Part shown: positions 8,027 through 59,800 of the stretch, in pieces
How the letters are laid out: each line of letters opens with the position of its first letter
How positions within the stretch are numbered: the stretch's first letter is position 1
Origin: Cenococcum geophilum 1.58
Taxonomy: Eukaryota; Ascomycota; Dothideomycetes; Gloniales; Gloniaceae
Length of the DNA: 64,000 nucleotides
Assembly (NCBI GenBank): GCA_001692895.1
Contig: KV748220.1
Span: forward strand, 1,364,358-1,428,357
Direction of reading: 5' to 3'
Program-made: the position numbers and the translations under genes
The notes under the pieces: model-generated
Told to the model about the DNA's origin: nothing
The model's input: only the letters and a program-made list of their open reading frames with translations
Databases searched by the model: none

Positions 8027-8290
8027 CATCAGGAAATTTATTTTTTGGGCGCGTTGTGCAAACAAAATCGGGGTCTGCAAAACCCTGCGTAAGTCGCAAT
8101 GTTGGCAATTGTGGCGATTTGCAAGCAGATTTGCTATAAACACATAGGCTAGCTATGCACGGCTGCCCTATCTATGCGCGTAGCAAAATGGCTGCAAATT
8201 GCACGCAAATGCTAAAATTGCGACTTACGCCTGCAGGTTCACACCCCGATGTTTACTGCACAAAACGTGCCCAAAAAAAAATTCCTGATG
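8027..8290. repeat. Foldback inverted repeat at left end of composite copy 3
   Basis: Two arms of about 125 bp in opposite orientation, each starting from CATCAGGAA and sharing TTTTTTGGGC, ATCGGGGT, GCGTAAGTCGCAAT and the central ATAGGCTAGCTATGCA region. The arms are imperfect but align along their whole length. The same outer motif, inverted, closes the composite at 10895. Confidence 0.75.
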
Positions 8291-9245
8291 CAGAGGCTCT
8301 GCACGAGGCTCTACACAAAGCTCTGCACGAGGCTCATTTATAACAAAGCTCTGCACGAACCTCAACACGAAGCTCTACCACCAAAGCTCTATACAAAGCT
8401 CTCTGCGCGAAGCTCTACACAAGCTTTGCACGAGGCACTAACACGAGGCTCTACCACAGAGCTCTGCGTACGTAAAGACTCTGTACAAGGCTTACACGAA
8501 GCTCTACACAGACGACTCTAAGCTACGACAGCTCTACACCAAGCTTACACGAAGCTCTACCCAAACTGCACGAAGCCTCTCGCACGAAGCTGCGCTGTCT
8601 CCGAAGCTCTGCACGAAGCTTCTGCACGAAGCTCTACACGAAGCTCTACACGAAGCTCTGCACGAGGCTCTGCTAGAAGCAACGTACACACGAAGCTCTG
8701 TAGAAGATCTACACGAAGCTTTACACATGCTACGAAGCTCTACACGAAGCTCTACACGAAGCTCTACAACGTCTATACGAGCTCTGCACGAAGCTCTACA
8801 CGAAGTCTGCGCAAAAAGCATTCACGATGCTCTACACGAAGCTCTGCGTACAGAGGCTTCTCACGAACGAGGCTCTACACAAGCAGAAAGCTCTCGTACA
8901 GAAGCTCTGCCACGCGCAACAGAAGCTCTGCAGACAGAAGCTGCATCTACACGAAGCTCTACACGAAAGCTCTCTACAACAAGCTTTGCACGAGGCTCTA
9001 CACGAGGCTTTCTACAACAAAGGCTCCTGCATACACATCTAGATGTGAGACATCCTGCACGAGGCTCTGCACGAAGCTCTACACGAAGCTCTACACAAGG
9101 CTCTGCACGAGCTCTACACGAAGCTCTGCACAAAGCACGATATGAAGCTCTACACGAAGCTATGCATAAAGCTCTACGAGCGCTACACGAGGCTCTGCCG
9201 CGAAGCTCTGCATACGGAGGCTCTACAACGAAGCTCTACACAAAA
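8281..9245 (+). repeat. 12-bp minisatellite array (type b), about 80 units
   Basis: Tandem units close to GAAGCTCTGCAC / GAAGCTCTACAC with scattered variants and indels. The consensus unit has no stop codon in any of the six frames, so long apparent reading frames of the EALHEALH, SSAR or CRAS type arise automatically; none should be taken as genes. Confidence 0.95.
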
Positions 9246-9486
9246 CCTTTGTGTGTGCGCGTGACACACTACTATCGGGTTTCCCCGCTATATTCCCGAT
9301 ACCTCTTAACACGTGGCCTCTGCCAAGTATAGCGCCTATATACACCTAGGTAGCAACTCATTTTTCTTACCTACTTACAAACTACCTAACCATAGGAAGA
9401 CTACAGAACGACAGCAAAAGCAGAAGACCGAATCGAAGGAAGCAATAACGACAGTCGACCAGACGAAGCTGACAAGACGACACGTC

Positions 9487-10200
9487 AGAGCGCAGTATGA
9501 CCGTCGTCAGAGCTAGACGACCCTCTGCCGAGCCAAGATGACCGTCGCCAGAGCTAGACGACCGTCAGCCAGACGACCGTCGTCAGAGCTAGACGACCGT
9601 CGCCCGAGCCAGAGTAGACTCGTCGCCAGAGCTAGACGACCGTCAGAGCCAGACGACCGTCGTCAGGAGCTAGACAACCGTCGTCAGAGCTATGACGACC
9701 GTCGCGGAGCCAGATGACCGCTTCGCCATAGAGCTGGACGACCGTCGTCAGAGCTCGGACGACCGTAGCCGGAGCCAGATGACCGTCGCCAGAGCTAGAA
9801 CGACCGCTCAGAGCCAGACGACCGTCAGTCAGAGCTAGACGACCGTCGCCGGATGCCAGATGACCGTCGCCAGAGCTACACGACCGTCAGCCAGACGACC
9901 GTCGTCAGAGTCTAGACGACCGTCACCGGACCCAGATGACCGCCGCCAGAGCTGGACGACCGTCGTCAGAGCCGGCGAACCGTCGCCGGAGCCAGATGAC
10001 CGGTCGCCAGAGCTAGACGACCGTCAGAGCCAGACGACCGTCGTCAGAGCTAGACAACCGTCGTCAGAGCTAGACGACCGTCGCCGGAGCCAGATGACCG
10101 TCGCCAGAGCTGGACGACCGTCGCCGGAGCCAGATGACCGTCGCCAGAGCTAGACGACCGTCGTCATCGCCACACGACCGTCGCCAGAGCCACACGACAA
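9487..10200 (+). repeat. About 20-bp minisatellite array (type c)
   Basis: Tandem units around GACGACCGTCGTCAGAGCTA with variants containing GCCAGATGACCGTCGCC. The core GACGACCGTCGTC is a near palindrome. The same array type follows the 12-bp array in the other two composite copies (26926 and 35765). Confidence 0.95.
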
Positions 10201-10261
10201 CCGTTCGAACGACCAGCCAGCGAACACGATAAACGATTTGATCGATCGATCGAATCAAGGT

Positions 10262-10332
10262 GACATAGACAGGTAGGCACAGACAGGTAGGCATAGACGG
10301 GTAGGTATAGACGGACGGACAGACAGACAGGT

Positions 10333-10379
<47 letters not shown>

Positions 10380-10396
10380 TAGGTAGGTAGGTAGAT
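10262..10396 (+). repeat. GGTAGGCA / GGCA microsatellite array (type d)
   Basis: Starts with AGACAGGTAGGCAC units and runs into a pure GGCA stretch (about 10330-10378) and GGTA repeats. It holds the same position as the AGGTAGGCAGATGCAGAC arrays at 27366 and 36068. Confidence 0.95.
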
Positions 10397-10560
10397 GATT
10401 TAGAGCCTCTGCGAGAGGCTTCCCCCTTGACGCCCAAAGTAGATAGCTCTACATTTTATATAGTTATAATATAAATATATTTAAAAGTATATTATAGAAA
10501 TCTATGGGAATATGTGATAATTTGGTTATTATATAATATAATTATAATTTATTATATAGT

Positions 10561-10690
10561 TACAATTTGTACAGTTTTTACAATTCGTACAGTTTGTACA
10601 ATTCGTACGGTTTGTATAATTCGTACGGTTTATACAATTCGTACGGTTTATACAATTCGTACAGTTTTTACAATTCGTATAGTTTGCGCG
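10561..10690 (+). repeat. 18-bp tandem repeat, about 7 units
   Basis: Units of TACAATTCGTACAGTTTG and close variants (GGTTTA). This array is not present in the two other composite copies. The stretch 10691-10895 that follows is unique apart from its end motif, which repeats the outer motif of the foldback at 8027. Confidence 0.9.
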
Positions 10691-10895
10691 CTATTTATTT
10701 ACAGGGTAGCGTTTTACTGCAATTTATTTATAGGGGTAGCATTTTACCGCAATTTGCTATCAGGTGCTGCGATTTTGTTGCAAAACGTGCGTTTTGCGCA
10801 AATTGCTATCAACCATATCCACCTGCCGCAACCGTACGGTTTGCGGCAATTTGCCGTAAACCGCAACAACGAGCCCCAAAAAAAATTTCCTGATA

Positions 10896-24899: not shown

Positions 24900-25114
24900 T
24901 GTAAGGGATATTATTGCGGACACCTCGGGTTGCCCTTAGGACAACCCCTAGACGCCCCTCGGATAGTCACCGATCACGTACCGGAGGCACGTGCCCGTAG
25001 TATATAGTCTCCACGATCCTAGAGGCCTTACCTCCTTAAGGATTTATCTCTCTTACTAATCTATCTTGTTCCAATCGTGTCCTTATAGCCCCCTGTCTAT
25101 AAGATCCCCTTATA
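24900..25114 (+). repeat. 3' LTR of element C
   Basis: Same length as the 5' LTR, starting TGTAAGGGATATT straight after the polypurine tract, ending TATA where the 5' LTR has CACA. Followed by the target duplication CTAAA. Confidence 0.92.
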
Positions 25115-25525
25115 CTAAATAAGTATATTCTTAAGGTTATTAAGCCTAACGCCTAATTTATTTATATCTTTAATGCAAAATAGAAATGGAGTGTTTATAA
25201 GAATAATGTAGAAGGTAATATACCCTAAGGGGGTTTAGACCCTAATTATGCTAAGAGAGATTATAGTACCCTTGCTAAAACATATTATATATTATCCTGC
25301 CATTAATTAGTTAATCTAGATAGAAGTATTAAGTTATTAAAGAGCTTAAACTTAAGGTTCTCCTGCTATAGATACTCCTATAGCTCCTATATCTAGTATA
25401 ATACTATAAAAGACGTTCGCCGAGTATTTATTATTAAAGGAGAACGCGGAACTTTCCTTTAGCTTATTAAAGATATCTAACTTTATAATAAAATGGAGCG
25501 TAAATTAATTATTAAAAATAGTAAC

Positions 25526-25769
25526 TGTTCGTACCAATTTAATGGCACGAGTGAGTCAGATCTAGGGGCACGAAATACGTATAGTATCGTATGCTCTTTT
25601 GGATGATGGTGACTGTCTCTTGTATTGAAGAAGACTACGTAGTCTATATACTAATGCGTCCTCCCCCTGATTAGTCAGTGCTTTATAAGTGCACCAGACG
25701 CGTAAGCGAGTGGTTGGTGCACCGAACGCGTAGGCACGCGGTTGGTACGACAGGTGCTGTAATTATACA
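25526..25769. mobile_element. Solo LTR, 244 bp, with perfect target duplication
   Basis: TGTTCGTACC...ATTATACA flanked on both sides by GTAAC (25521-25525 and 25770-25774). No internal region is attached, so it is a recombined solo LTR. It keeps CA and TG dinucleotides, unlike the element D sequence around it, so it is younger than the main RIP episode or escaped it. It resembles none of the other LTRs in the window. Confidence 0.85.
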
Positions 25770-25974
25770 GTAACAGTTTATATACTATTTACCTTATTAT
25801 ACTTAGTAAAGTATTAGTTAAGGGAGTGGTTCTTAATTTCTATATCTATAAGGAGCTATTCGGCCTTATTAACCTTACCCTTAAGATCTTCTATACCTTT
25901 ATATTAAACTAGGAACATCGGGAAAATATTCGCAGGATGAGATTCAAGTAGACTTTGATTTTCGCGTTTCGCGT

Positions 25975-26275
25975 AATTGACATGCAATTTGACCAACTCG
26001 ACACGCAATTGACCAACTTGACACGCAATTAACCAACTTGACACGCAATACAACCAACTTGACATGCAATTGACCAACTTGACACGCAATTCGACCAACT
26101 TGACATGCAATTGACTAACTTGACAACTTTAAAAGCTAACTATATATTTCTTGACACGCAATTAACCTACTTGGCAACTTTAAAAGTTAAATAACACGCA
26201 GTTCCTTAACACGCAGTTAACCTACTTAGCAACTTTAAAAGTAACTAATATAATTTCTTAACATGTAATTAAAGG
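25975..26275 (+). repeat. 20-bp tandem array (type a) in composite copy 1
   Basis: About seven units of CAACTTGACACGCAATTGAC, followed by longer, looser repeats that combine ACACGCAGTTAACCTACTT with AACTTTAAAAGTTAA. The same array, RIP-altered, stands at 34755-35065. Confidence 0.9.
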
Positions 26276-26363
26276 TAAAGTTATATGCTTATATATTTAA
26301 CTTATATATTATCTAATATAATCTTATACAATCTTATACAATCTTATATAGTCTTATTACTTG

Positions 26364-26795
26364 GAGCTCTGCACGAGGCCTCTGCACGAGGCTCTACACG
26401 AAGCTCTACACGAAGCTCTGCGTACAGAGGTCTGCACGAAGCTCTGCGCATAGAGGCTCTGCACGAAGCTCTGCACGAAGCTCTGCACGAAGCTCTACAC
26501 GAAGCTTTGCATAAGGCTCTACACGAAGCTCTACACGAAGCTCTACACGAAGCTCTGCGTATAGAGGCTCCTGCACGAAGCTCTGCACGAAGCTCTGCAC
26601 GAAGCTCTGCACGAAGCTCTGCACGAAGCTCTGCACGAAGCTCTGCACGAAGCTCTACGTACAGAGGCTCTGCACGAGGCTCTGCACGAGGCTCTGCGCG
26701 AGGCTCTGCGTACGGAGGCTCTGCACGAGCTCTGCACGAAATTCTGCACGAGGCTCTGCGCGAAGCTCTGCGTACGGAGGCTCTACACGAAGCTC
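26364..26795 (+). repeat. 12-bp minisatellite array (type b) in composite copy 1
   Basis: About 36 units of GAAGCTCTGCAC, very regular between 26560 and 26660, broken at intervals by GCGTACAGAGGCTCT-type variants. Open in all six frames for the reason given at 8281; not coding. Confidence 0.95.
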
Positions 26796-26925
26796 TGCAT
26801 CGGGTCCCCGCCTATATTTCCCGATAGCCTCTACACGTGTCTCTGCCTATGTAGCCGCCTTTTTTTTACCTTCCTTCCTTCCTACATCCTCCTACCTAGG
26901 GAGGCACTAGAACGGCAGCCAGCAG

Positions 26926-27315
26926 AGGACCGTTGCTAGAACTAGATGACTATCGCTAGAACCAGACGACCGTCGCTAGAGCCAGACGACCGTCGCCAGA
27001 ACCAGACGACCGTCGTCAGAGCCAGACGACTATCGCCAGAGGCCAGACAACTGTCGCTAGAACCAGACGACCGTCGCCAGAACCAGACGACCGTTACCCA
27101 GAACCAGACGACCGTCGCCAGAACCAGACGACCGTCTCCAGAGTCAGACGACTGTCGCCAAAACCAGACGACTGTCGCCAGAGCAGACGACCGTCGCCAG
27201 AACCAGACGACCGTCTCAGAGTCAGACGACCGTCGCCAGAACCAGACGGACTGTCGCCAGAGCCAGACGACCGTCGCTAGAACCAGACGACCGTCGCCAG
27301 AGCCAGACGACAACG
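26926..27315 (+). repeat. About 20-bp minisatellite array (type c) in composite copy 1
   Basis: Near-regular units of GACGACCGTCGCCAGAACCA. The long overlapping reading frames on both strands here are by-products of the stop-free unit. Confidence 0.95.
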
Positions 27316-27365
27316 ACTAGCCAGCGAACACTATAAACGATTCGATCGATTGATCGAATCAAGGT

Positions 27366-27670
27366 AGCACAGACAGGTAGGCACAAACAGGGAGATGCTG
27401 ACGGGTAGGCAGATGCAGACAGGTAGGCAGATACAGACAGGTAAGCAGATGCAGACAGGAGGCAGATATAGATAGGTAAGCAGATGCAGACAGGTAGGTA
27501 GATACAGATAGGTAAGCAGATGCAGACAGGCAAGCAGATGCAGATAGGTAGGCGATGCAGACAGGTAGGCAATGTAGACAGGTAGGCAATGTAGACAGGT
27601 AGGCGATGCAGACAGGTAGGCAATGTAGACAGGTAGGCGATGCAGGCAGGTAGGTAAGTCAATAGGTAGA
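27366..27670 (+). repeat. AGGTAGGCAGATGCAGAC array (type d) in composite copy 1
   Basis: 18-bp and shorter units (AGGTAGGCAATGTAGAC, AGGTAAGCAGATGCAGAC). It corresponds by position to the GGCA array of copy 3 and to 36068-36505 of copy 2. It ends with an ambiguous base at 27675. Confidence 0.9.
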
Positions 27671-30600
27671 TAGGNAGAAGAGAACCATCGCTATATTATA
27701 TTAAATTATCTAAAATAATANTNTTTATTTTACTAGCCTTATAAATAGCTTTAAANTAGCTTTTATTTATTTAAAATATGCTATTAGTATAAAAGAGGTA
27801 AATATAATTATAGTTGCCAAATGCGCAGATTGCTGGCAGGTTGCGCGCAGGCTGCGTGTCAAAAAAACACGACATAGGCTAGTCGGTCGAGTTGCTAAAT
27901 GACCTCAACTGCGCGCCAATTGCGTCAACCACCAACCATTGAGGCTATTGAAAGGGTACCATATTTTGCCGATGAAGCTTTAAAAGTAGGCTATAGTAAT
28001 TTTATAATTTTTAACGTTTCTTATACTCTAACGAAACTTATTATATACCTCCTTTCACTTATTAAGGGAGTGTCTAGTTAATTAATAATTTGGCTTCTTA
28101 TATATATAGTACTTCTTTTAGTAATTACTTTAAAATAAACCTCTATAAGGACCTCTATAATTGCTTTATAGTTAACGTTAATCGTACCCTCTACCGTAGT
28201 CCCTACTACAACCACTATATATTTAATTAGTCCAGTTATAGTTATATTGGTTAGGAATACTTAGTTAGGTAGGGGTTTTAGTATAGAATTATTAAGATTC
28301 TTATATTTATATTATAGTACCTATATTGGAGTGTAGCTTAGCATATACTTCTTTAAATATATCTATAGGTTTATATAGCGCTAAATTGCACTTAAGAACG
28401 CTATAGTAGGCTAAGATAACCTAGTCCCTTAAACTGTTCTTATTTTAGTAAGTTTTAGTAAGACTATATTAGATTTTCTAAAGTTTATTAAAGAGTAATT
28501 AAAGGCACTCTAAACGAGTTTTTATTAGGTTAAAAGTAATAACTCTCTAGAATATAGTCTCCCGCCATTTAGATATATAAAGTTGGCGGTTTTTATTAGT
28601 CTTAAAGTAGGCTCTAGTAAGCTAAAGTATTATATTAAAGCTATAGTTTTTATCCATAATATAATCGTAATAGAATATTACTGCTTGTCCCTTTAATATA
28701 ATAGAGAAAGCGTAATAGTACTAGTGGCATTAAATTCTAACCTTATTGCAATAGTTATAAAAAACCTATAGTTTTGCTCTAAGTATATTATACAGTTCTC
28801 CTTTAAATTTCTTCTCTTTGTCCAAATATACCTTCATTAAATTCGTGACTTTTTATAGTAGAGGCTTACCGGTTAGTTAGAATAGAGGAGGTAGAGGCGG
28901 TGAAGGAGGTAAAGGAAGGGCACCTCTAGGTAAAAGGGTACCTTTAGGTAAGAGGGTAGCGTTCTGGGGGTTTAGATATAAATTAAAGTTCCCTTTTAAA
29001 GAATATAGGTTAGTTCTAGGTTTCCATAGTTAACGTATAATCTTAGCTTTTATCTATACTAATTCTTCTATACTAATAATAACGGCCTAAATATTACTAG
29101 TAATTGGGTTACCGTTTTTAGTAATATATACCCTATTCCTATAGAGGAAGTCTCGAAAATTCTAAATAATATTAACGTTGCTAAGTGCCTAGGTATTAGC
29201 AGTCCATCCTATAAAATCCTCTCTAAAATACTCCCACAGTTGTAAATCGGCGTAGTATCTATTTCGGTAGAATATAATATAGTGTAAGAGAAAGCCGTTA
29301 ACTTATTTTGCGGTATAAGTTATTATATTAAAGGCGAATTCGTCCTAATCTTTATTAATAAGTTTTACGTGCTTAGCTACCCCTAATAGTAAGGAGTCTT
29401 TTTAGTTGTTTAGCGTAGCCATACTTTCAGAGGAAGGGAAGTATTATTGGTGTAGGGATTATTGTTTAGTACGCGTTCGTAATAAGAATCTGCAATTATA
29501 GGGCTTAGGACTAGTTCTAGCCTTAAATCGCGAAGGTTTATAAAGTATATTATTCTGTGTAATAGACGCAAGAATCTATAATCTTAGAAAGGCTTAGGAC
29601 TAGTTCTGGCCTTTTAGATCCTTAAATTTGTAGAAGAGTTTTATTTAAGGTTTAGGACCAGTTCTAACCTTAAAAGATAGCTTCCTCTAGTATAAGTAGC
29701 ACTAGTACAGTAGCTTGTCTCTTCTTAGTAGAATACCTAGCTGCTCTGTGGTATAACAGTAAAGTTAACTACTAATTAGTGTTGGTTTTATAAGGTAATA
29801 TTACGTATCTATAAGTTATAGATAGTATAATAATTGTTAATTACTCCTTAATGGAATAAGGAAGGATAAGGAGCTTAAGACTCCTCGCTACGCTAGTGCC
29901 GCGGCGATACGTAACGACCGCTTGCCTTATTCCTGATAGCCTTTTTACTTAATATATCTACTCTTATATTCTTAATGCCCTTAGTATACTAAATCTTAAA
30001 ATAGTATTTTATAAGCATCTCTACCTATTTAACTTATCTCTAATTAAGTTCTTTAGTTATTAGGAACTCCGTTAGGTTCTTATAATCTATCTTAACTATA
30101 AATAGTTTTTCTACGCCTTATAAAAATGCTCTTTATTTCTTAAGTACTATAACTATACCTAATAACTTCTTATTATAGATATTATAGTTTAACTCTAGTA
30201 GTGTTATTTTCCAACTATAGTATACTACTAGGTGCTATGCGTTCCTATACTTTTATAGTAAATATACTCCTAGTGCAAGGTTTAATATATCCGTTTTTAT
30301 AACTATATCTAATCATAATTAATAGATCTTAAGGATTGGCTCCTAGGTAAATAACTCCTTAAGTTCTTTAAATAGCTTTTCTATTTATTTCCCTATACCT
30401 ATAATTCCTCTTTCTTTATAAGCCTAGTAAATTGTTTAATATTCTTTAACTATTATACTATAAACCTTTTATAGTAGTTATAAAACCCTAGAAATAACCT
30501 TAACTATATTATATTTTCTAGTTTTTACTAACTTACTATAGCTTTAATCTTTTTTAGATCTATACTAATATAACCTAGTTTTATAATAAATCTAATAAAA

Positions 30601-31391
30601 TTAGTCTTTCTAGTAAAAAACTCGCATTTCTTAATTACTACTAGTCTTTTTTTATAGTCTTTTTAAGACCTATTTAATATATTCCCTGTATTCTTTTTTA
30701 GTTATTAAGTAGATAATAATATTATTAAGATATACTATAATAAACTTATTAAGGTGTTTTTCTAATATATTATTAATTTGTTTCTAGAATATTACTAATA
30801 CATTTATAAGTCTGAATTATATAACTAATAGCTTATATAGTTCTTTCTTTAACCTAAAAGCTGTCTTTTATTTATTGCCTTTCTTAATTCTAATTTAATA
30901 GTATACCTATCTTAGATCTATCTTTATAAAGATTTACGTATTACCTATCTAATCTTAAATTTCGCTAATTAAGGGTAAAGGATACCTATCCTTCTAAGTA
31001 ATGCTATTTAACTATCTATAGTTAATATATAGCCTAAGTTTTCCATTCTTCTTTGGTATAAATAATACTGGATAACCTACTAATAACTATAATAGTCTAA
31101 TATATCCCTTTTATAGGGTTTCCTAGACAAACTCTAAGTACTTTTAACTCCTTTTAAGTAAGCTTATAGGTTAAAAAGAACCTTAGACTTATTTCTAGTT
31201 TTAACTCTATTTTATAGTTCTATGCTATATAATTTACTAGCTTTTTACTTTTTAGGCTCTATAGTTTCTTGCTATATTTATAGTATTTCTTTAATATATA
31301 ACTTAAGCCTTGCTTAATCTCTTTATATATTACTCTAACTTAGTTTGCTATTATATTTTATAGCGTTAAATATTTTAATATTAACTTAACC

Positions 31392-31622
31392 TGTAACTAT
31401 AAGGTGAGGATATAGATAGGGAGTCCAATAATAGAACAATAGGTATATTGTATAGACAGAGACGAATCCTTAAGGGAAAAGGAGGAGTCTGTGTGCGAGG
31501 TAGGAAGGGTTTTCCCTAGGCATGTATAGCGCACGTGCCTTACGGGCGAGTCACCCCTAGGTTGCCCCAGGGTCGCCTATACCTTACGGCTATATAGCTA
31601 TCTACTTAGGTTTTACCTAACA
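31392..31622 (-). mobile_element. Solo LTR related to element C, inside B-minus
   Basis: 231 bp with TG..CA ends (minus strand TGTTAGGTAAAACC...TATAGTTACA). It shares CCTTAAGGATTCGTCTCT with the C LTR and has a similar GGCACGTG block, so it belongs to a sister family. TAACC occurs at 31387-31391 and 31624-31628, a possible target duplication that leaves the right edge uncertain by one base. It is much less RIP-altered than its surroundings. Confidence 0.65.
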
Positions 31623-34600
31623 GTAACCTAATTAACCTTTAGATTATATTTTTATAACTAAGGTATATCTAATACTACCTTATCCTATCCTAATAGTAGA
31701 ATATTAAAAAATATCTTAATTTGTCTCCCTTTAATAGTTATCTAAATAGGCCCTATTTTAAGATTAATAATACCTCCTTTATAGGCTATTAGATCTCCTA
31801 AAATTATAACTAATAGGTAAGGGTACTCTTTTTATCTATAAGGTAGTCCTATCCGTTTTACTACTACTAGTAAGATATAGCTCCTTATTACTCTACTATC
31901 TATTAATACTTTAAACTACTAATTTTACTAATTAACTTGTAAATTTAGGTATTGTTTTTAAATTCCTTTAAGGGTTTAAGGCTTTACTACTAGCTCCCTT
32001 TAGTTTTATAGGCCTTTACTTTTTCTAACTATTAGCTACTTAATTCTATTATACGTAACTTGTTCTTTAGCTAATACCTAATTTATATTTTATCTTTAAT
32101 ATACTATAGATATATATTCTTTAGGCATTCCTACTACTATTATTTATTAAGGCATTTTCCTATAAGAAATCTTCCTAGTTAAAGTATTAAGTTACTTCCT
32201 TTTAAACTTTTACTAAATACCATCTGTATATATACTTAGTATTTCTATACTATTACTTATTTAGCGCTTAATATATTCTTATAAGGTATTTCTAATTCTT
32301 TTCTTTTAGATTTTTATGTATATTATTTATATTATTTATATATATAATCTATTCTAATATATAATACGCTAGGTGCTTTAAGTTAACTCTTAACTTATCT
32401 TTATTTTTAAGTTTAAATCTCTATTACGTTAATCTAAACGTTATAACTTTATTTATAGGTACTAAGATTTACCTTTTACTTCTCTAGTCCTCTAATTATT
32501 CTTCTAGATCCTTTACTGTTATAATTAAGGCTCCCTTAATATAACTTATAGCTTTTTCTATAATAGGGCAGTTTTGGATAACTCGCTTATCTAACTATAT
32601 ATAAAAATCTTCCTACTTATTATCATGTTGTTATCTGTACTACTTTTAATATAGCTGCTAGAGTATATATAGCTTATCCGTAAGAAAGTATCTTTTTATT
32701 ATTATATTATAACAGCCCTTTATATATTATTCTTTAAATCTAATAAAGATCCCTAGATTCTCTTCTTATTCTAGTTTAATAAGCTATTTTACTCTTAGCG
32801 TACCTACCTTAGGCCTATTAGTAATTCTTTATATAGGTACTCTATCCCTAGTATAACTTAGTATACTAGATCTTTAGTTTAGTTTCTATTCTTACTATAT
32901 AAGGATTTTCTATCTAAATTCCTTTATAGTTTCTTTACCTACTTACCTTATAAGTAGATCCTTAAAGTCTTCTTACTTCTTAATCTTATTGTTATTTTCT
33001 TTAATAGTCCTTATTTATATATTAAAGTCTTAGTTTTATAGGATTCTTAATTTTAAGCTTACTTCTTTCTTAAGCTTAGCTCCAGCCTTAGTCTAATTAG
33101 GCTTTTACGATGTTCTTATCTTATTTTAAAAGTCTTAAATCTTACTTATCTTGTCTTAAGAATCTTATGCCTTTAGGAAGCTTCGTCCTAAGCTTATTTA
33201 TATATTACTAAACTAAGCCATTGCTTTACTCTATTAGTTATCGTCTATTATAGATCCTTAAGCTTGCCTTATCTCGTCTTAAGAATTTTAGTTGTCTTTT
33301 ATCTTATCCTAAGAATCTTAAGCCTTTATCCTTTTACCTTTATTAATTAGTAAGCTAGCACTAGCAGTCGTCTACTTACTTAATCCTTTTTCTTAGATAT
33401 TTCTCCTTCTGTCTTATAAAATAATAGATATTATATCTAATAGGGTTATAATTTCTATTACTAATTTTTGTTTTTATAAAGGTTTTAGTTTTTACTTCTA
33501 ATATAACTATTTTAAGGTCTATACGCTCCTAGTAAGCTGCCTTTATTACCTTATTATTACTAAATATTTTGCCTATATTAAATTTATCGTCCTTAATATC
33601 TAATTTATAAGATAGTTTGTTAGTTTCTCTAAACTTTAATAATTTTAGCTCCTATAGCTAATAGCTTACGCCGTACTTAGCGTCTTTATAACTTTAGTAT
33701 ACGTTATTATAATAAAACGTAAAACTCTTAATTAAATACTCCTTGGTTCCTTATAGTATACTATTATCCCTTTATACGTGTGTATTATCTACTAGTCTCG
33801 TTTCTTTTACTATATAGTAACTCTAACTACTTTTATAGTCTTTAATAAAATAACCTTATTTTCCGTAATTTATATAAACTTTTTCTTTAAACTATTTTTG
33901 TTACTATAGAGTCTACCTAAACGTCTTTTACTACTAAAATCCCTAGTTTAGCCTTTACTTCTTAGTCCTATAATTACTTAATCCTTAACCTTTAGGTTTC
34001 TATAGTTTCTTTATCTATTTTTTAAAAAATTTAATACCGCTTAAGTCTATTAGTTCTGCACTATACCATAGTTTCTAACTTTAACTTTATTATTATATAC
34101 TTTACGCCTTATATAACTATAAAACTCTATCCTAACCCTTCTTAGTCTATTCCCTTTAGTAAATCCTATTATTAATCTTAATTGCTTAATTAATTAGTTC
34201 TCTTAGGGTATTCGCATCTTCTATTAAGATAATTACATCCTAGACTTTTGTCTTAAGTCCCTACTTATACTATGCCATAAGCGCCTTATTATTCTATTTA
34301 ACCTATATTACTAATATTTAAAACTATATTATATACTTAATTACTAAGATTCGCTATACTAAGCCTTAAAGCTTTCTTTCTACTATTGTAGTTGCCTCTA
34401 GGTCTCTAAATATTTATGTTAATTATTCTATAAACCTATTTTAACTAGCAAATATATATTATACTTCTTAATTAGTAATTACTATACCGTTTTTCTATAT
34501 CTCTATTAAATAAGGTTTAAACCACTTAAGTGCCCTTCCTATTAGGAATAGTCCTGCGTAGGCTATTTAGTCTATAGCTGTTACTAGTTTTACTCCCTCT

Positions 34601-34693
34601 TATATAACCCTAAAGTGCATTTACGTAAGAAACCCCTTCAACTTTAACTTCTCCCCTAAGAATTACTTAATAGATAGTAGCTTAATCTTAGCT

Positions 34694-36830
34694 TATTATG
34701 AAAATATTCGCAGGATAAGATTTAAGTAGACTTTGTTAAGCGCGTTTTGCGTAATTGATATATAATTTAACCAACTTGATACGCAATTAACTAACTTAAT
34801 ACGCGATTAACTAACTTAATACATTTAAAAGTTAAACGACACGCAGTTAACCTACTTAATAACTTTAAAAGTTAACTGTATATTCCTTAACATGCAGTTA
34901 ACCTACTTAACATATTTAAAAGTTAAATAATACGCAGTTAACTTACTTAGTAACTTTAAAAGCTAATTATATATTCCTTAACACGCAGTTAACCTACTTA
35001 AAAGTTAAATAACACGTAGTTAACCTACTTAATAACTTTAAAAGCTAACTGTATATTTCTTAATATGCGATTAAGGTAAAGTTATATACTATATATTTAA
35101 CTATTATATATAATCTTATACAATCTTATATAATCTTATACAATCTTATATAATCTTATATAATCTTATATAATCTTATAGTCTTATTACTTAAAGGCTC
35201 TATATAAGGCTCTGCATAAAGCTCTATATAAAGCTCTATATAAAGCTCTATATAAAGCTTTATATAAGGCTCTATATAAGGCTCTATATATAAAGGATCT
35301 GTATAAAGCTTTATATATAGAGGCTCTGTATAAGGCTCTATACGAAGCTCTATATAAAGCTCTGTATTAGGTCCCCGCTATATTCCTAATAGCCTCTATA
35401 TATGCCTCTGCCTATATAGCCACCTTATTTTTTACCCTTTCTTCCTTCCTTATATCCTCCCTACTTAGGGAGGCACCAGAATAGCAGCTAGTAAAAAACC
35501 ATCGCTAGAACTAGACGACTATTGCTAAAACTAGATAACGACCGTTTAAATAACTAGCTAGCAAACACCACGAATAATTTAATTAATTAATCGATTTAAT
35601 TGAACCAGAGCTTTAATATTGGCCTATTACTAAATCAAATTAAGGCCTCCTAGAAAGGTACCCTAGATAACTACCGTTTAAATATAATTAGGGCCTTTAA
35701 TCGGGCCGACCCCTCCCCTAAATTAAATTATATACTAATATAGGTAGGTAAGTAGGCAGGTAGAAGAGGACCGTCGCTAAAACTAGACGACCGTCGCTAG
35801 AGCTAGATAATTGTCGCTAGAGCTAAACGACCGTTACTAGAGCTAGACGACCGTTACTAGAACTAGACAACCGTTACTAGAACCAGATAAACGTCGCTAG
35901 AACTAAACAACCGTTACTAGAACTAAACAACCGTCGCTAGAGCTAGGCGACCGTCACTAAAGCTAGACGACCGTCGCTAGAACTAGACAACCGTCGCCAA
36001 AGCTAGACAATAACGACTAGCCAGCTAACACTATAACCGATTTAACCAATTAATTAAATTAAGGTAATATAGACAGGTAGGCATAAATAGGCAGGTGCTA
36101 ACGGGTAGGCAGATATAGATAGGTAGGTAGATATAGATAGGTAGGTAGATATAAATAGGCAGGCAGATATAGATAGGTAAGTAGATATAGATAGGTAAGT
36201 AAATATAGATAGGTAAGTAGATATAAATAGGTAAGTAAATGCAGATAGGCAAGCAGATGTAAATAGTTAGGTAAATGCTAACGGGTAGGTAGATATAGAT
36301 AGGTAGGCAGATATAGATAGGTAGGTAGATATAGATAGGTAGGTAAATATAAACAGGTAGATATAAATAGGTAGGCAATATAGATAGGTAGGTAGATGTA
36401 GATAGGTAGGTAAATATAGATAGGTAGGTAATATAGGTAGGTAGGTAGATGTAAATAGGTAGGCAATGCAGGTAGGTAGGTAAGTTAATAGGTAGATAGG
36501 TAGATAGGTAGAAGAGAACCATCGCTATATTATATTAAATTATCTAAAATAATAATATTTATTTTGCTAGCCTTATAAATAGCTTTAAAGTAGCTTTTAT
36601 TTATTTAAAATATACTATTAGTATAAAAGAGGTAAATATAATTGTGGTTGCTAAATACGCAGATTGCTAGTAGGTTGCGCGTAGGTTACGCGTAGGCTAC
36701 GCGCAGGCTGCGTGTCAAAAAAACACGACATAGGCTAGTCGGTCGAGTTGCTAGATGCCCTCAACTGCGCGCTAATTGCGTTAACCACCAACCATTAAGG
36801 CCATTAAAAGGGTACTATATTTTGCCGATG
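34694..36830 (+). mobile_element. Composite minisatellite element, copy 2 (2.1 kb), RIP-altered
   Basis: It shares both ends with copy 1: GAAAATATTCGCAGG at 34700 and ATATTTTGCCGATG ending 36830. It is inserted in gag of the B-minus element; the plus-strand B copy is continuous at the matching place (about 57510-57535). Arrays: type a (34755-35065), AATCTTATA units (35112-35180), 12-bp units now reading GCTCTATATAAA (35195-35370), a short type c piece, a 220-bp extra segment (35545-35765) that repeats part of the next linker, type c (35765-36012), linker, type d (36068-36505), then the 3' tail. Nearly all differences from copy 1 are C-to-T or G-to-A. Confidence 0.75.
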
Positions 36831-37195
36831 CTGCTCTAATCCCGTTAATCCTTTCTTTAAGTATCCTATTATTATCTATTAATTAATTAACTATTACTTA
36901 TAACTACCCAATCGTAACTAATTATAAGTTAGTATCTGCTATACTAGTGTTATTACCTAACCCCAATATAGTCGCTGCTATAGACGCTGTTATAACTACT
37001 ACTTTTAGTAGCATATTATTTGACTTTATTAATACTATAACCTTAGTAGTAAATGTATAATAAAGCCTTATAGGAAATACTACGGTAGACTTATTAATGG
37101 GCTAGGTATATAGGTAAATAAGAAGTTAATAATAATAATATAATTAGTAAAGTAGTTTCCTAATAGATTAACTCTAATTATATTCTAAGATTTAC

Positions 37196-37670
37196 TATAA
37201 AGAAGAGAACTATCTAGGTAGGGACTGTGGTCCTTTAAATATATAATACTGCGCCTAAGAAATACTTAGGTATATTAGTATATTAAATAATCTAAGTATA
37301 TAACGTTCTAATAGATCTTATAAATTCTACGTTCCAAACTTGTAACGTAATTAACTATATAACTTAGTTACCCCTTATCCTATAGTTTAACTGGTTCTAG
37401 CACCTCCCGTACTTCTACCGCTAGTCCGTTTATATCCCTCTTTAGTAGTTGTACTACTGCCGATATAAGGTCTATAACACTGTATTTATAGAGCCTTCGG
37501 CTTCCCTCCTTTTTAATATTACGAACCTTACGGAATACATTCTTTTTTTCTCTTCTTACTAACTGCTTTACTGACTACTTCTAACTAATTATAACTGACT
37601 GATTAATAGACAGATAGACAGACCGACTGCACTGTGACTTCCTATCTAAGAGTAGTCGTACCCTCCCACA
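37196..37670 (-). repeat. LTR of the B-minus element
   Basis: On the minus strand it starts TGTGGGAGGGTACGACTACTC. Its final part (37196-37290) matches the end of the 56869 LTR, while the first two thirds do not. The inner end is placed at the TATA before TTTAC by analogy with the plus-strand copy. Confidence 0.5.
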
Positions 37671-38290
37671 ATACTAAATCTATTTTGGTTTTAGTGTTAT
37701 AAACTTATACTAGAAGTATTATATATACTTATTAATAAACTAAATAAACTATAGAATATAGTATAGGCTATAATAAAACCAGTAAAACTATATAATAAGT
37801 GGTAAGTAAGGTTATATAATATTAAATATATTAAACGCGTTAAACGGATTAAATGTTATTAAGGCTTGCGTTTAATATAGATAATATATATACCTTACGT
37901 ATAAAGGGATTTCTTAGGTATATAGTTGTATATTTAAGGACCCTTAGTCCCTAACGTAAATAGTTCTCTCTTTATAGTAAAATCTATTAAGCACCTACTC
38001 TACTAGTTAGAGCTTGTTGTTTTACTTCTATCTATATACCTAGCCCATTACTAAGTCTACTGTAGTATATCCTATAAGACTTTGTTATATCTAGCTTTTC
38101 TAATATTTTTTCTAACGTTAGTATATAATAATGCTTATAGACTAGAGGATTTCTATAATTTTTTCATTAAAGGAATTAAATCCATAATCTCAATCGTTCC
38201 CTTAATAGTATTAGAAGTAAGAGATAATCTAAAATCCTTAATTTCTTAAACTCCGGAAGATATATCGTACGATATTATATAGATAGAAGA
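37671..38290 (+). mobile_element. Family B LTR and leader fragment, plus orientation
   Basis: The stretch 37895-38100 matches the LTR end and downstream leader of the plus-strand B element (ATTTCTTAGG, then ATATACCTAGCCCATTA). It faces the opposite way to the B-minus LTR beside it. No further domains follow before the RIP-altered block ends at about 38290, so this is a fragment. Confidence 0.45.
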
Positions 38291-39018: not shown

Positions 39019-39860
39019 ACAGTCATCGACGAAATATCGGTAACTCGCTTAGAGCCGAACGTCGCGCGTTACCCACCCTCTTAAAACGATATACCCCCCA
39101 TAACTTTACCAATATACCTTTATACTTTATAGATAGGGCCTTATTTTATAGCTCTTTACTAAAGCTATAAAACGAGCCCCTATTTACATAATTTAGAGCT
39201 ATATTGGTAGGACTGTAGGGGGTAGAGCCGAATATTGCGTATTACCTACCGTAATAAAACGATTTACCCCTTATAACTTTATCAATATACCTTTATATTT
39301 TATAAATAGGGCCTTCTTTTATAGCCCTTTACTAGGCCTATAAAACAAGCCCCTATTTATATAAATTAGAGCTATATTAGTAGGACTATTGGGGGTATTA
39401 TAGGGTACTAGTTTTTGGGGCGGGGTAGCTAAAATTAGTCAGCGCAGAGCCTCAATTCAAAATTTCACAACTTTAGTAAAACAACCCCCACAGCTCCGCT
39501 AATATAGCTTTATATTTTGGAAATAAAGTTTTATTTTATAGCTTTAGAATAAAGCTATAACATTAGCTATTATTTATATAAATTAAAGCTATGTTGGTAA
39601 AGTTATGAGGGGTATATTATTTTAAAAGGGCAGGTAATACGCGACATTCGGCTTTACCCCCTACAGTCCTACTATAATAGCTCTAAATTATATAAATAGG
39701 GGCTCGTTTTATAGCTTTAGTAAAGAGCTATAAAATAAGGCCCTATCTATAAAGTATAAAGGTATATTGGTAAAGTTATGGGGGGTATATCGTTTTAAGA
39801 GGGTGGGTAACGCGCGACGTTCGGCTCTAAGCGAGTTACCGATATTTTGTCGATGACTGT
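39019..39860. repeat. 842-bp inverted repeat with arms of about 225 bp
   Basis: ACAGTCATCGAC at 39019 and its inverse ending at 39860 open two arms that agree at nearly every base for more than 200 bp, including GTTACCCACCCTC and ATAGGGCCTTATTTTATAGC. The middle (39246-39619) holds further copies of a roughly 145-bp, itself palindromic, unit running from CCCCxxATAACTTTACCAATATA to TATTGGTAGGACTGTAGGGGG. This looks like a foldback or MITE-type element in non-RIP sequence. Confidence 0.8.
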
Positions 39861-41525: not shown

Positions 41526-43054
41526 ATGGCTTCAATATCGAGAGCTCTACGACCACTAGCACGTGCTGCTGCTTCCACCTCTAGGACTTCGCGAACTGCA
41601 ATTCCCAAAGCAGCCGCGCAGTAAATCTTCCTTCCACCAAACCGTTACATCTCCAAAACACTCCAATTCTAACGCTACTTTCCATACAGGATACGGTGTC
41701 TCTCTTCCACTCAGCCACGCCGGACGGTCGACATCACCGACTTACCTCCAACACCTATAACCCACCTCTCCGAAACCGAATCGTTAATGGCGGACCAAGT
41801 GTCCAAATTCTCACAAGAAGTGATTTTACCGAAAGTCCGCGACATGGACGAAGCGGAAAGCATGGACCCGGCAATCGTCGAGCAGTTATTTGAACAGGGA
41901 CTTATGGGAATTGAGATTCCGGAGGAATACGGTGGTGCTGGCATGAACTTTACCGCAGCGATTGTTGCGATTGAGGAGCTAGCGAGGGTAGATCCGAGCG
42001 TGAGCGTTATGGCAGATGTCCACAATACGCTATGTAATACAGCAATTCTAAAGTATGCAAGCGAGCGGCTGAAGAAGGAATGGTTGCCGAAGTTGGCAAC
42101 GAACACAGTTGGTGAGCCCTAGAGGTCATGGAATGAGGTTGTGGGTGGTAAGACTGACTTTGCTACAGGATCTTTCTGCCTTTCTGAGCCGGTTTCGGGA
42201 TCAGACGCTTTTGCTCTTGCCACTAAAGCCACAAAGACGGATACAGGATACAGGATCAACGGGGGCAAGATGTGGATAACGAACAGCATGGAGGCTAACC
42301 TCTTCATCGTTTTTGCCAACCTTGACCCAAGCAGGGGCTACAAAGGCATCTCGGCCTTCTTGGTCGAGAAAGGAACGCCCGGCTTCTCGATTGCGAAAAA
42401 GGAGAAGAAACTCGGTATCAAGGCTAGCAGCACGTGCGTCCTCAACTTTGACGATGTCGAGATTCCTAAGGAGAACCTGCTGGGTGAGGAGGGTCAAGGG
42501 TATAAATACGCAATCAGTCTTCTAAACGAGGGACGGATTGGTATTGCAGCGCAGATGACTGGGTTGGCGCTAGGAGCATTTGAGAATGCTGCTGGGTAAG
42601 TTTCTACTATTTCAGACTTTATTTTACACGAAACGGAACGAGTGCTCTGCTTTGAGCTGTTGGAATTATTTGCTGATAGCGGATTAGCTACGTCTGGAAC
42701 GACCGAAGGCAGTTCGGCAAGCTCGTCGGCGAATTCCAAGGCATGCAGCACCAGATGGCACAAGCCTGGACGGAACTCTGCTCCGCGCGCGCTCTCGTCT
42801 ACAACGCCGCTCGTAAGAAGGAAGCCGGTGAGGACTTTGTCCAAGATGCTGCTATGGCTAAACTTCTCGCGTCTCAGGTAGCGGGTAAGATTTCCGGTCA
42901 GGCTGTTGAGTGGATGGGTGGCATGGGCTTCGTGAGAGAGGGATTGGCCGAGAAATACTTCAGGGACAGCAAGATCGGTGCAATCTATGAGGGTACGAGT
43001 AATATCCAGTTGACCACGATTGCGAAGTTGTTGCAGAAGACTTATACGAGGTGA
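41526..43054 (+). CDS. Mitochondrial short/branched-chain-type acyl-CoA dehydrogenase
   Basis: Exons 41526-41620, 41690-42111, 42169-42595 and 42688-43054 join in frame to 436 residues; the introns (69, 57 and 92 bp) are GT..AG. The start is the first ATG and opens a presequence rich in Arg, Ser and Ala ([18 protein letters not shown]), typical of mitochondrial import. The mature part has the whole family pattern: EEYGGAG and the [13 protein letters not shown] helix, FAD-binding [15 protein letters not shown] (from about residue 175), [48 protein letters not shown] and MGGMGF...[16 protein letters not shown], whose Glu (residue 416) is the expected catalytic base. Known role of the family: FAD-dependent alpha,beta-dehydrogenation of acyl-CoA in the matrix, passing electrons to ETF. 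It is closest in motif order and length to animal ACADSB, so 2-methylbutyryl-CoA or short straight chains are likely substrates. It appears intact, with none of the RIP seen on either side. Confidence 0.93.
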
Positions 43055-51275: not shown

Positions 51276-51560
51276 CCTAAAATCTCATAATCTATAGAGC
51301 TAGATCTCCTAAGTAATTTGATATAATTTTTACCTTAAAATACGTTATGGGGAGATTAATTAATTTTGTTGGGGTTTATAAGTTTTCCTTACAAAAAAAG
51401 CTTATGCTTCCATACAAATCTCGCCAAAGTCCCTCAGACCTTACCTCAGCGAGCTCAGACGTGATTTTTTTAGCTAGCGTCGGAATAACCTACGCCGTCT
51501 TCCGAATTGCAAAATCACGTCTGAGAGGGTTTGGCGAGTTTTGTTAAAAACGTAAGCAAA
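51276..51560. repeat. Hairpin module, copy 2, with left flank module
   Basis: A left module (AATCTCATAATCTATAGAGC ... GGGGAGATTAATTAATTTTG) leads into GCTTATGCTTCCATACAAATCTCGCC, then the same CAGACGTGATTTT hairpin as at 50928. The outer parts (TCTCGCCAAAGTCCCTCAGAC versus GTCTGAGAGGGTTTGGCGAG) are themselves inverted repeats, so the whole module folds back. Confidence 0.7.
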
Positions 51561-51910
51561 ATCCGCAAAACGGATATTGCGGATATCTAATTTATTTATT
51601 CACATAACGCGTTATTATTAAACCCCATAGTCACATTTTTTTTAAGACTTAGGGCTTCTAAATGGTATTAATTTTATTATACGGCTATTGCTTGGTCCTG
51701 ACATTAATTTCGTTAAAGTTAAAAAACGCGTTGTTAAAAGCGTAAGCATATATTATATCTTATTGAATAGTCTACTAATATAGATAAAACTATANAGATA
51801 TATAGATATCTACTACTTAAAGCTATTNCAACACCTAGNAGGTGCTATAGTTNGGTCCTTCCTTAAAAATATCCTCCCTTNGCCCGGAGTGTCTCTGCTA
51901 CTACTAGGGG

Positions 51911-56868: not shown

Positions 56869-59800
56869 TGTTACGGACGCTTTAAGTACAATATTATGAC
56901 TACTTAGAAAAGAGTCGGAAGAAGCTAGTTAGTTAATCTAGGCACGATCTAGAATAGAGCCGGTAGAGCTATGTGATGAGGAATGATAACTAAGGTCACG
57001 TAGGGTAATCTATATAATCTATATAATCTATATAATCCGCAATAGAGCAAATAGAGTATACGTACATTACGTATAAGAAGGATTTCTTAGGAGTATAGTT
57101 ATATATTTAAAGGACCACAGTCCCTACCTAGATAGTTCCTTCCTTATAGTAATTCTTAGAATATAATTAGAGTTAATCTATTAGGTAACCACTCCACTAG
57201 TTATTATTACATTATTAACTTTAACTTGCTTTACCTATATACCTAGCCTATTAACGAGCCTATCGTAGTTCTTGCTATAAGGTTCCGTTATATAATTACT
57301 ACCTAGTTATAGTAATAAGTGCAGAAAGTTAAATAATATACCACTAAAAGCAGCCACTACGACGCTATTAATGGCGGCAACTACTTTAAGGTTAGGAGAA
57401 GACACTAGTATAGCGGATACTAACTTTTAGCAACCTATAACGGTCGGATAACTATAAGAGATAGTTAACTAGTTAATAGCTAACAATGCAGTAATAGAAG
57501 AAAGGGTTAATAGGATAGGAGCGGTAAGGATTAAGTTACTATTAATTAAGAGGTATTTAGGAGAAAGATTAAAGCTTAAGGGATTCCTTACGTAAATATA
57601 CTTTAAGGTTACGTAAGAAGGAGCTAAGCTACCTACACCTATAGATTGAATAGCCTATGCAGGACTGTTCCTATTAGGAAGAGCACTTAAGTGGTTTAAG
57701 CCTTACCTTACGGAGATACAGGTAAATGGAATGATAACTACTAACTAAGAAGTGCGGTTTATGTTCTTAAGCTAGGAAGGCTTTATAGAGCGACTTACGT
57801 AAATATTTAGAGACATAGAAGAAACTACTATGGTAGAAAGGAAACTCTAAAGTATTACGCAATAAACCTTAGCAATTAAGTATATAATATAGTTCCAGAT
57901 ATTAGTAATATAAGTAGAGTAGAATAATAAGGCGCTTATAGTATAGTATAAGTAAGGACTTAAGGCTAAAGTCTAGGACGTAATTATCCTAATAGAAGAT
58001 GCGGACACCCTATAGGAGTTAATAGATTAAGCGATTAAGATTAATAATTAGATCTACTAAAGGGAACAGGCTAAGAGAGGTTAGGATAGAGTTCTATAGT
58101 TATATAAGGCGCAGACTACGTATTAACTAAAGCTAAGTTAGAAACTATAGTATAGCGCAGAGCTAATAGACCTAAGTGGTACTAAAGAAGCCTATAAAAG
58201 ATAGAGTAAAAAACTATAAAAACCTAGAGGTTAAGGATCTAGTAATTATAGGACTAAGGAACAGAGGCTAAACTAGGGATCTTAGCAGCAGAAGACGTTT
58301 AGGCGGACTCTATAGCAAAGTTAATAGTTTAAAGATAGAGCTTATATAAATTGCGGAAAATAGGGTTATTTTATAAGGGATTGTAAAGATAGTTAAAGTT
58401 ACTATATAATAAAGGGAACCTAACCAGTAGAAGACATATACGTATAAAGGGATAATAGTATACTACGAGGAACAAAGAAATATTTAATTAAAAGTTTTAT
58501 GTTCTGTTATAATAACGCATACTAAATTTATAAAGACGCTAAGTATAGCGTAAGCTATTAGCTATAGGAGCTAAAATCTATAGAGTATAGAGGAACTAAT
58601 AAACTAGTTTGCAGATCGGATATTAAGGATAATAACTTTAATATAGGCGAAACATTTAATAATGATAAGGCGATAAAGGTAGCTTATTAGGAGTATATAA
58701 ACCTTAGAGATATTATAATAGAGGTAGAGGATAATTCTACTACAGAATAGGGAATATTAGTAGGGATTAAGACCCTATTAGATATAATATCTATCGCTTT
58801 ATAAGACGCAAGAGAAGTAGGATAGTAAACTACTTTGGCACTTAATAAAGGCAAGAAGCTAAAGGCTTAAGATTTTTAAGACAAGATAAAAGATAACTAA
58901 GATTCTTAAGACGAAATAAGGTAGACCTAAGGACCTATAATAGATAGTAACCAATAGAGTAGGGCAGTAGCTTAGTTTAAAGACATACGAATAAGTTTAG
59001 GACAGAGTTTCCCGCAGGTATAAGACTCTTAAGATAAGATAAGAACACTAAGTAAGCCTAGTTAGACTAAGGTAGGAGTAAAGCTTAAGTTAGAAGCAAG
59101 CTTAGGATTAAGAATCCTATAAAACCAAAAATTTGGAGTATAAATAAAGACACCTATAAATAAGAAGTAAGGAGCTTCCTTATAGATTAGAGAATCTATA
59201 GTATAAATAGTAACTAAACTGGGAGATAGATATATAGACCTAGAAGACTTACTAGGGGAATATAGTGTTCGGTTTAAAGATCGGAAAGTTAATATTAAGA
59301 TTAAGATTAAGAAGTAAGAAGGCTTTAAGCATCTATCTATAAGACGCAAATTAAAAGAAACTATAGAAGAATTTAGGCAAAGAATTATCGCATAGTAAGA
59401 GCAGAAACTAGACAAGAGATCTAGTATATTAGGACGTATAAAGGATAGAGTACCTATACAAAGAATTACTAATAGGCCTAGAGCAGGCACACTAAAAGCT
59501 AAGTGGCTTACTAAACTAGAAAATAAAGAGGATTTAGGGATTTTAACTAGGTTTAAAGAATAACATATAAAGGGCTGTTATAATGTAGTAATAAGAAGAT
59601 ACTTCCTTACGGACAAGCTATATATACTCTAGTAGCTATACCAAAGGTGGTATAGGCAAAGGCACAATAATAAGTAGGAAGATTTCTATATATAGCTTAA
59701 TAAAAAAGTTATCTAAGACCACCCGATTACGGAAAAAGCGATAAGTTATATTAAGGGAGCCTTAATTATAATATTAAAGGATCTAGAGGAACGTTTAGAG

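Follow-up and report, generated by a model that had tools for sequence, protein, structure and literature searches.

The window, a 64,000-nucleotide stretch of the genome of the ascomycete Cenococcum geophilum 1.58 (contig KV748220.1; C45:1364358-1428357 in an assembly of 177.19 Mb in 162 contigs), contains three insertions, here copies 1 to 3, that carry the same series of minisatellites: a 12-bp array, linker 1, a 20-bp array, a palindromic linker 2 and a GGTAGGCA-type array. With copies elsewhere in this genome they form three families, A, B and C, which are insertion units with terminal inverted repeats (TIRs), 2-bp target-site duplications (TSDs) and empty sites, and which hold this shared core between different ends. 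Very probably, all three families are non-autonomous TIR DNA transposons, similar to large miniature inverted-repeat transposable elements (MITEs), that share a minisatellite cassette, are mobilised in trans, and have undergone exchange between B and C. The occurrence of the block in at least three families with different ends suggests that it has been passed between transposons.

Insertion units, dispersal and empty sites

The copy set (n=43) consists of the three window copies, 20 loci fetched as family A and 20 fetched as copy-1 type (18 family B and two family C), the fetched loci (L numbers) being chosen from the best-scoring matches. Both ends were placed by script in 36 of the 43 copies (A 19, B 15, C 2). 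The window elements and their parts are as follows.

8027..10895 (2869 bp), + strand: copy 1, complete family B element with TIR CATCAGGAAATTT... and TSD AG
8027..8283, + strand: family B 5' foldback, TIR then inverted TIR, up to the start of the 12-bp array; the same places match on both strands
8289..9244, + strand: core 12-bp array in copy 1
9260..9420, + strand: core linker 1 in copy 1
9499..10198, + strand: core 20-bp array in copy 1
10199..10260, + strand: core linker 2 with palindrome in copy 1
10261..10391, + strand: core GGTAGGCA/CAGG array in copy 1
10392..10895, + strand: family B 3' tail with TIR in copy 1
25914..25915: left TSD copy AA of copy 2
25916..27974 (2059 bp), + strand: copy 2, complete family A element, recognised by its TIRs, AA/AA TSD and order of parts
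25916..25929, + strand: 5' TIR CATCGGGAAAATAT of copy 2
25977..26125, + strand: family A 5' 20-bp array, units with the subterminal motif TTGAC(N0-2)GCAATT
26099..26357, + strand: 51-bp and 10-bp arrays of the family A 5' lead
26365..26799, + strand: core 12-bp array (GAAGCTCTGCAC) in copy 2
26799..26922, + strand: core linker 1 with ATCGGG..CCCGAT in copy 2
26923..27311, + strand: core 20-bp array (GACGACCGTCGCCAGAACCA) in copy 2
27312..27362, + strand: core linker 2 with palindrome ATTCGATCGATTGATCGAAT in copy 2
27389..27654, + strand: core 18-bp GGTAGGCA-type array in copy 2
27655..27974, + strand: family A 3' tail in copy 2
27961..27974, - strand: 3' TIR CATCGGCAAAATAT of copy 2
27975..27976: right TSD copy AA of copy 2; with a single AA left at the closed site, the empty-site matches show no net gap
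34694..36830 (2137 bp), + strand: copy 3, second family A element, TSD CT
57212..57819, - strand: insertion-free paralogue of the repeat into which copy 3 inserted (empty site), 73% identity

The outer coordinates of the three blocks had been given in an original prediction made from the letters of the window, and they are the element ends, with TIRs and matching flanking dinucleotides (AG, AA and CT in copies 1, 2 and 3, respectively). That prediction described the same array series in the same order in all three blocks; the order and the linkers are indeed conserved, whereas the third array is of a 4-bp CAGG/GGTAGGCA type in copy 1 and an 18-bp array in copies 2 and 3. A 5' 20-bp array and a 3' tail of ~300 bp, which it assigned to copies 1 and 2, are common to copies 2 and 3 instead, and the view that the blocks are copies of one unit fails for copy 1, which has different TIRs and unrelated subterminal DNA with no cross-family BLAST match.

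The 5' part of copy 3 contains the 51-bp and 10-bp arrays as in copy 2. Decay in copy 3 is heavy, mostly C-to-T or G-to-A, and affects its palindrome, its 12-bp array and its 5' terminus. The 20-bp array of copy 3 is divided by ~220 bp (35540-35765), where an early degenerate linker-2-like palindrome and then other sequence precede the main array, which would fit an interruption or rearrangement of that array. In copy 1, the first impression of 8027-8295 was of a separate MITE inserted beside the arrays; its retention as the family B 5' end rests on its recurrence there, at least in part, in 18 of 18 fetched B loci and on matching outer dinucleotides in most B loci with the 3' end placed.

Linker 1 of copy 2 gave 1069 first-look candidates in its own genome, and the best 40 of these, copy 2 itself being one, were 92-100% identical and spread over 30 contigs. 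The lead, linker 1, linker 2 and tail stood in identical order in 20 of the 20 loci fetched with this linker; among the 20 copy-1-type loci, BLAST found linker 2 in all 20 and missed linker 1 in one, L041, where it is too degraded (19 of 20 found), and recognisable 12-bp and 20-bp units were present in 43 of 43 copies. The shared order of parts is not chance. The exact family A 5' terminus (TIR CATCGGSAAAATAT) occurs 302 times in the genome and the exact 3' terminus 210 times, compared with 1 and 0 matches, respectively, for the backward-pattern controls. Pairing of the two ends rests on the matches listed, the first 100 places for each: on contigs C1-C12, 36 of 74 listed 3' ends had an exact 5' end at 1.56-3.46 kb in the right order and strand, 38 had no exact 5' end that near among the matches listed, and none of the end pairs within 4 kb among those matches was in the wrong order or strand. 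Seven listed 3'-to-5' pairings spanned 5-20 kb and might conceal autonomous copies; at least one of them (on C3) is false, being that of copy L022, which has no 5' end.

Identical 2-bp flanks were found in 33 of the 36 copies with both ends placed, compared with 0-5 of 36 when the same flank comparison was made at 25 offset positions. The matching TSDs are TA (17), AA (8), AG (3), TT (2), AT (2) and CT (1), and 14 of the 33 are non-palindromic and are therefore true direct repeats.

The window copies all sit inside other repeats, as had been predicted, and the empty sites are other copies of those host repeats. The closed 240-base flank of copy 2 (with one AA) was crossed at its junction without a net gap by all of the best 40 of 1267 candidates (91-93% identity). 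For copy 1, 40 of 40 scored matches crossed the junction of the closed flank, 8 of them without a net gap, and for copy 3 the junction was crossed without a gap at 8 matching places in the window or fetched sequence (72-75% identity). The closed flank of the family C copy L046 was also matched, its best match having no net gap. Tested against the window and fetched sequence only, 15 of 36 closed flanks had a spanning match, including two (L037 and L042) that match only their own locus. The elements are real insertions.

No Pfam match (E 0.01) was found in five open reading frames (ORFs) of 130-201 aa overlapping the three window copies, to which the ORF scan was confined. Rfam gave 0 matches at the gathering score within window positions 25001-38000, and a known functional RNA was rejected as the identity on this basis. 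The predicted non-autonomous element with recognised ends is borne out by the dispersal, the TIRs, the 2-bp TSDs, the empty sites and the lack of a Pfam match in the window ORFs, and the genome search with the linker, which had been proposed alongside it, returned copies with shared ends and array order. The opposing case, also named there, was a tandem locus, a subtelomere or segmental duplication. Spread through segmental duplication or subtelomeric exchange rather than transposition would agree with copies 1-3 sitting in other repeats, but it is extremely improbable given the 30 contigs that hold the best 40 linker-1 matches, the sharp ends, the TSDs and the clean empty sites. Dispersed minisatellites can be seeded genome-wide by transposition with their array order preserved.

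The shared core and the ends of families A, B and C

The TIRs are of the CATCGG type in family A, CATCAGG..CCTGATG in B and CGTCAGG in C, and the termini of the three families are alike over ~11 bases only. Family B comprises copy 1 and 18 fetched loci, with a 5' foldback that adjoins the first array unit (matched only in part in L047, L048, L049, L053 and L054) and its own 3' tail. Family C (L046 and L052) has the TIR CGTCAGGAAAAAATTTACCAGC, TSDs of TA and AG, its own foldback (inner end missing in L046) and a different tail. The family C 5' end gave 240 first-look candidates, of which 40 were scored and many match only part of the query, and coordinates suggest a third family C copy on contig C15. 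When the ends (41 5' ends of 200 bp and 37 3' ends of 250 bp) were compared by BLAST (E 1e-5, plus strand), every within-family pair matched and 0 cross-family pairs did.

Mean core distances within families are 0.060 (A) and 0.092 (B); between families they are 0.058 (B and C), 0.161 (A and B) and 0.123 (A and C), so that A cores differ from B and C cores by 12-16% on average. In a core tree built with FastTree both C cores are nested in B, and the B+C clade has a support of 1.000. In the closest B/C core pair, formed by L052 (C) and L054 (B), 1 of 208 aligned bases is different and there are no gaps; the 3' end of L054 was missed by the script, yet B termini and AG/AG flanks are present. Such a near-identical core within unrelated ends implies a recent exchange between B and C, either of the core or of the ends that surround it. 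For A relative to B and C, simple descent may be the explanation.

Descent of A, B and C from one ancestral core-bearing element, with ends that merely diverged and no exchange of cores, is unlikely. It would explain the similarity of the ~11 terminal bases and of the 2-bp TSD in all three families, the presence in C of the first ~45 bp of the family A 3' tail after the third array, and the last 80 bases of B and C, which agree slightly better than shuffled sequences. It is at odds with B and C cores that differ at so few bases within ends that have no BLAST match, and with the position of both C cores inside B.

It is also unlikely that the core moves on its own and inserts into MITEs belonging to several families. 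The same core with the same internal order does lie within three types of ends, it is bordered by the beginning of the 12-bp array on one side and stops a little past the third array on the other, and two MITEs with A ends lack it (L031 and L034, of 497 and 520 bp, which have TA duplications, the A TIR and the A 3' tail and no arrays). However, inspection by eye revealed neither a TIR nor a TSD where the core begins and ends, the sequences read included no free copy of the core, and the right border in B differs from that in A and C.

The most probable routes of the exchange are composite transposition, after MITEs had inserted beside the core, and recombination or gene conversion by way of the core, which is repetitive. 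B and C elements start with a MITE-like foldback adjoining the core. The body of a non-autonomous DNA transposon can occur in families with differing ends. A further proposal, which we put forward tentatively and lean slightly against, is that the three-part minisatellite cassette is a transferable module that was taken up by at least three families with different ends, retains its array order and linkers in all of them, and may benefit its carriers, possibly through more transposition, retention or chromatin effects.

As a separate observation, linker 1 (26800-26826 in copy 2; 9273-9301 in copy 1) carries the inverted pair ATCGGG..CCCGAT, which is like the family A TIR CATCGGGAAAATAT, and the core may hold fossil termini.

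Proposed mobiliser, subterminal motif and array behaviour

The elements are MITE-like in their TIRs, their fixed 2-bp TSD, their empty sites and, as seen for the window copies, the lack of a transposase of their own. A transposase from elsewhere would recognise termini of the form C-A/G-T-C-A/G-G... and would insert the elements with a 2-bp, A/T-rich TSD, the element body presumably being the non-coding cassette of three arrays and two linkers. Among the TIR-pattern loci L029-L034 no autonomous partner with the family ends was found. L030 and L032 had at first seemed candidates for one; L030 has no 3' end within 4 kb, and L032 is a MITE in which a Fot1-like element with separate TIRs is nested. 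This Fot1-like element (L032/L056; C66, ~593086-597102) has TIRs of at least 19 bp (AGTCCGTGCCAAGCCGTGC) and lies inside a MITE with family A ends, the likeness of its transposase being judged by eye only.

Tc1/mariner elements, including pogo/Fot1, have a strict TA duplication. They do not fit as the source of the transposase here, where 16 of the 33 matching TSDs are not TA. That such a transposase was the mobiliser and the non-TA duplications have since decayed is quite unlikely; TA accounts for 17 of the 33, and the nested element in L032 is Fot1-like, but the other dinucleotides (AA, TT, AG, AT and CT) match on both sides, which decay of TA would not give. Helitron/DINE elements, which have no TIR and no TSD, do not fit elements in which both are present, and foldback elements, which have long inverted repeats at both ends, do not fit a foldback that is 5' only in B and C and was not seen in A.

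Typical CACTA/EnSpm elements have the termini CAC..GTG (PMC12730594) and do not fit termini of CATC or CGTC, and ISL2EU (PHIS), with an AT duplication within A|AT|T (PMC4482050), does not fit a set in which AT makes up only 2 of 33 matching TSDs. PF02992, as a probe for CACTA, had 0 matches in the C. geophilum genome, but 14 control genomes were equally silent and the result is thus uninformative. PlavakaB (CMC/CMCT, Agaricomycotina) has 2- or 3-bp TSDs, with which the 2-bp TSDs here agree, and the termini 5'-CATCA..TGATG-3' (PMC12730594), a signature that is exact in family B (CATCAGG..CCTGATG) and has one base changed in A (CATCG) and C (CGTCA). This likeness is a resemblance of ends and not membership; PlavakaB is described from Basidiomycota and with coding copies (PMC12730594), whereas here no coding region was seen and no transposase found. 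We infer a transposase that acts in trans and is of Plavaka-like type. The palindromic linker-2 pattern had, as expected, 0 matches in the viral and prokaryote contig collections.

In family A, 19 of 19 copies with both ends carry the motif TTGAC(N0-2)GCAATT, scored with at most 1 mismatch, in inverted orientation at 46 bp from the 3' end and forward in the 5' array region, where 17 of these 19 have it more than once. It was found 0 times on the wrong strand at either end and once in the core over all copies. Shuffled ends give an expectation of ~0.1 and 0.16 copies of 19, the 19 copies being related and so not 19 independent events. The core-less MITE L031 has one forward and two inverted sites. 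Its opposite orientations at the two ends make it a candidate transposase-binding motif, which would have been amplified on the 5' side, and the family A 5' 20-bp array would then be an amplified subterminal motif that probably adds binding sites. Together with the terminal signature, the candidate motif offers a handle for finding the transposase.

The number of recognisable units per copy, by script count, ranges from 2 to 31 for the 20-bp array and from 10 to 114 for the 12-bp array. In the 20-bp array, unit edits within vs between copies are 3.52 vs 3.60 in A and 4.11 vs 4.05 in B; they are slightly lower within copies for the 12-bp array (1.77 vs 2.00 in A, 2.06 vs 2.25 in B) and likewise for the A 18-bp array (4.44 vs 4.91). 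The near-equal variation of 20-bp units within and between copies indicates that arrays and their variants travel with the element and chiefly change in number; copies would inherit the arrays with the element and alter their unit number afterwards. Family A tails diverge from their majority sequence by 0.4% (L012) to 8.1% (L028), the closest pair differs by 0.5%, and 94 of 143 changes are G-to-A or C-to-T. Judged from these tails, family A has been active recently. Many family A copies have a pattern like that of repeat-induced point mutation, and copy 3 is among those strongly altered. The hundreds of copies in this one genome, with their TSDs and the empty sites in paralogous repeats, allow the expansion of arrays, the C-to-T/G-to-A decay and the exchange of modules to be dated.

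Several results weigh against the account of trans-mobilised families that share and exchange a cassette. The 40 fetched copies are best-scoring matches and not a random sample, and the letters of family C were read for two copies. There is no matching 2-bp flank in 3 of 36 copies (L011, L043 and L050), the empty-site matches of copy 1 are 1 base short in 31 of 40 and 1 base long in 1 of 40, and several closed flanks match the window or fetched sequence only with small net gaps. The BLAST test of the ends does not bear on the ~11 terminal bases that are alike; where the last 80 bases of one B copy are set against those of the two C copies, 50-52 positions match, the 95th percentile of shuffled sequences being 49; and most inner branches of the core tree are weakly supported. 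Neither the window ORFs nor the TIR-pattern loci L029-L034 yielded an autonomous copy or a transposase, the Plavaka model not being searched. No homogenisation after insertion was seen in the 20-bp array, where variation within copies is about that between copies. The motif pattern was chosen after the arrays had been seen, and the MITE L034 has one inverted site, which is not at 46 bp, and no forward site.

Neighbouring sequence and known systems

A fourth array of the same 12-bp unit lies at 51911-52566 (minus strand) in a different repeat context, with 23 units at no more than 1 mismatch; the parts of A and B that it matches best are their 12-bp arrays, and a linker was not seen. On its flanks are a 27-bp copy, in direct orientation, and a 40-bp match, in inverted orientation, of a different repeat, whose ends read CAAATCTCGCCAAAGTCCCTCAGAC and which occurs in the window at 51400-53080; similar sequence is nested in the MITE of L029 (by eye). 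The region 39024-39855 belongs to another TIR element, with the inner motif CATCGACRAAATATCG and a 173-bp tandem duplication. Despite its similar-looking TIR it was rejected as a family member, as the repeat runs outward to CAGTCATCG and fits TA flanks there (by eye). Host genes lie between the repeats: the one at 42141-42599 has an acyl-CoA dehydrogenase middle domain (E 3.4e-24), and that at 45124-48000 is a 958-aa ORF that contains internal repeats of 42/84 bp and matches ATG16 (E 2.9e-11), perhaps only through a coiled coil.

The original prediction knew of no described fungal family built in this way, and none appeared in the titles and abstract openings covered by a literature search. 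Tandem-repeat MITEs are already known; what is new is one three-array cassette common to several TIR families. Among fungi, the MITEs of Mycosphaerella graminicola are similar in having 2-bp TSDs (TA in 8 families, CT in 1), and some are grouped by a shared TIR despite different internal sequence, but an internal minisatellite cassette is not mentioned in the available part of that paper (PMC4522978). The BrickBuilt MITE of Porphyromonas gingivalis is dispersed and has small inverted-repeat ends with a leader and tail around a minisatellite, but it is bacterial and has one 23-bp array; another element described there has TIRs like those of BrickBuilt and other repeats (PMC4596501). There, similar ends enclose different repeats, whereas in Cenococcum different ends enclose the same repeats.

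The tandem-repeat MITEs of bivalves (Pearl family and DTC84) are likewise modular with internal repeats, and DTC84 has a conserved palindrome near the repeat junction; these are animal elements, and the accessible text does not mention a cassette common to families with different ends (PMC5139131). Tetris of Drosophila is non-autonomous with internal tandem repeats, and for Galileo the repeats inside the TIRs are reported with extra transposase-binding sites, as we propose for the family A 5' 20-bp array; unlike the Cenococcum elements, Tetris has TSDs of 8-10 bp, and the repeats lie within the TIRs (PMC4079207). A parallel in the sharing of a segment is found among the highly conserved domains of short interspersed nuclear elements (SINEs), of which the V domain also occurs inside the MER6 MITE; that is a single, retroposon-derived domain, whereas DNA transposons and minisatellites are concerned here (PMC6887750). 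If the Cenococcum cassette is a transferable module, it would be the DNA-transposon counterpart of such SINE-borne conserved domains.

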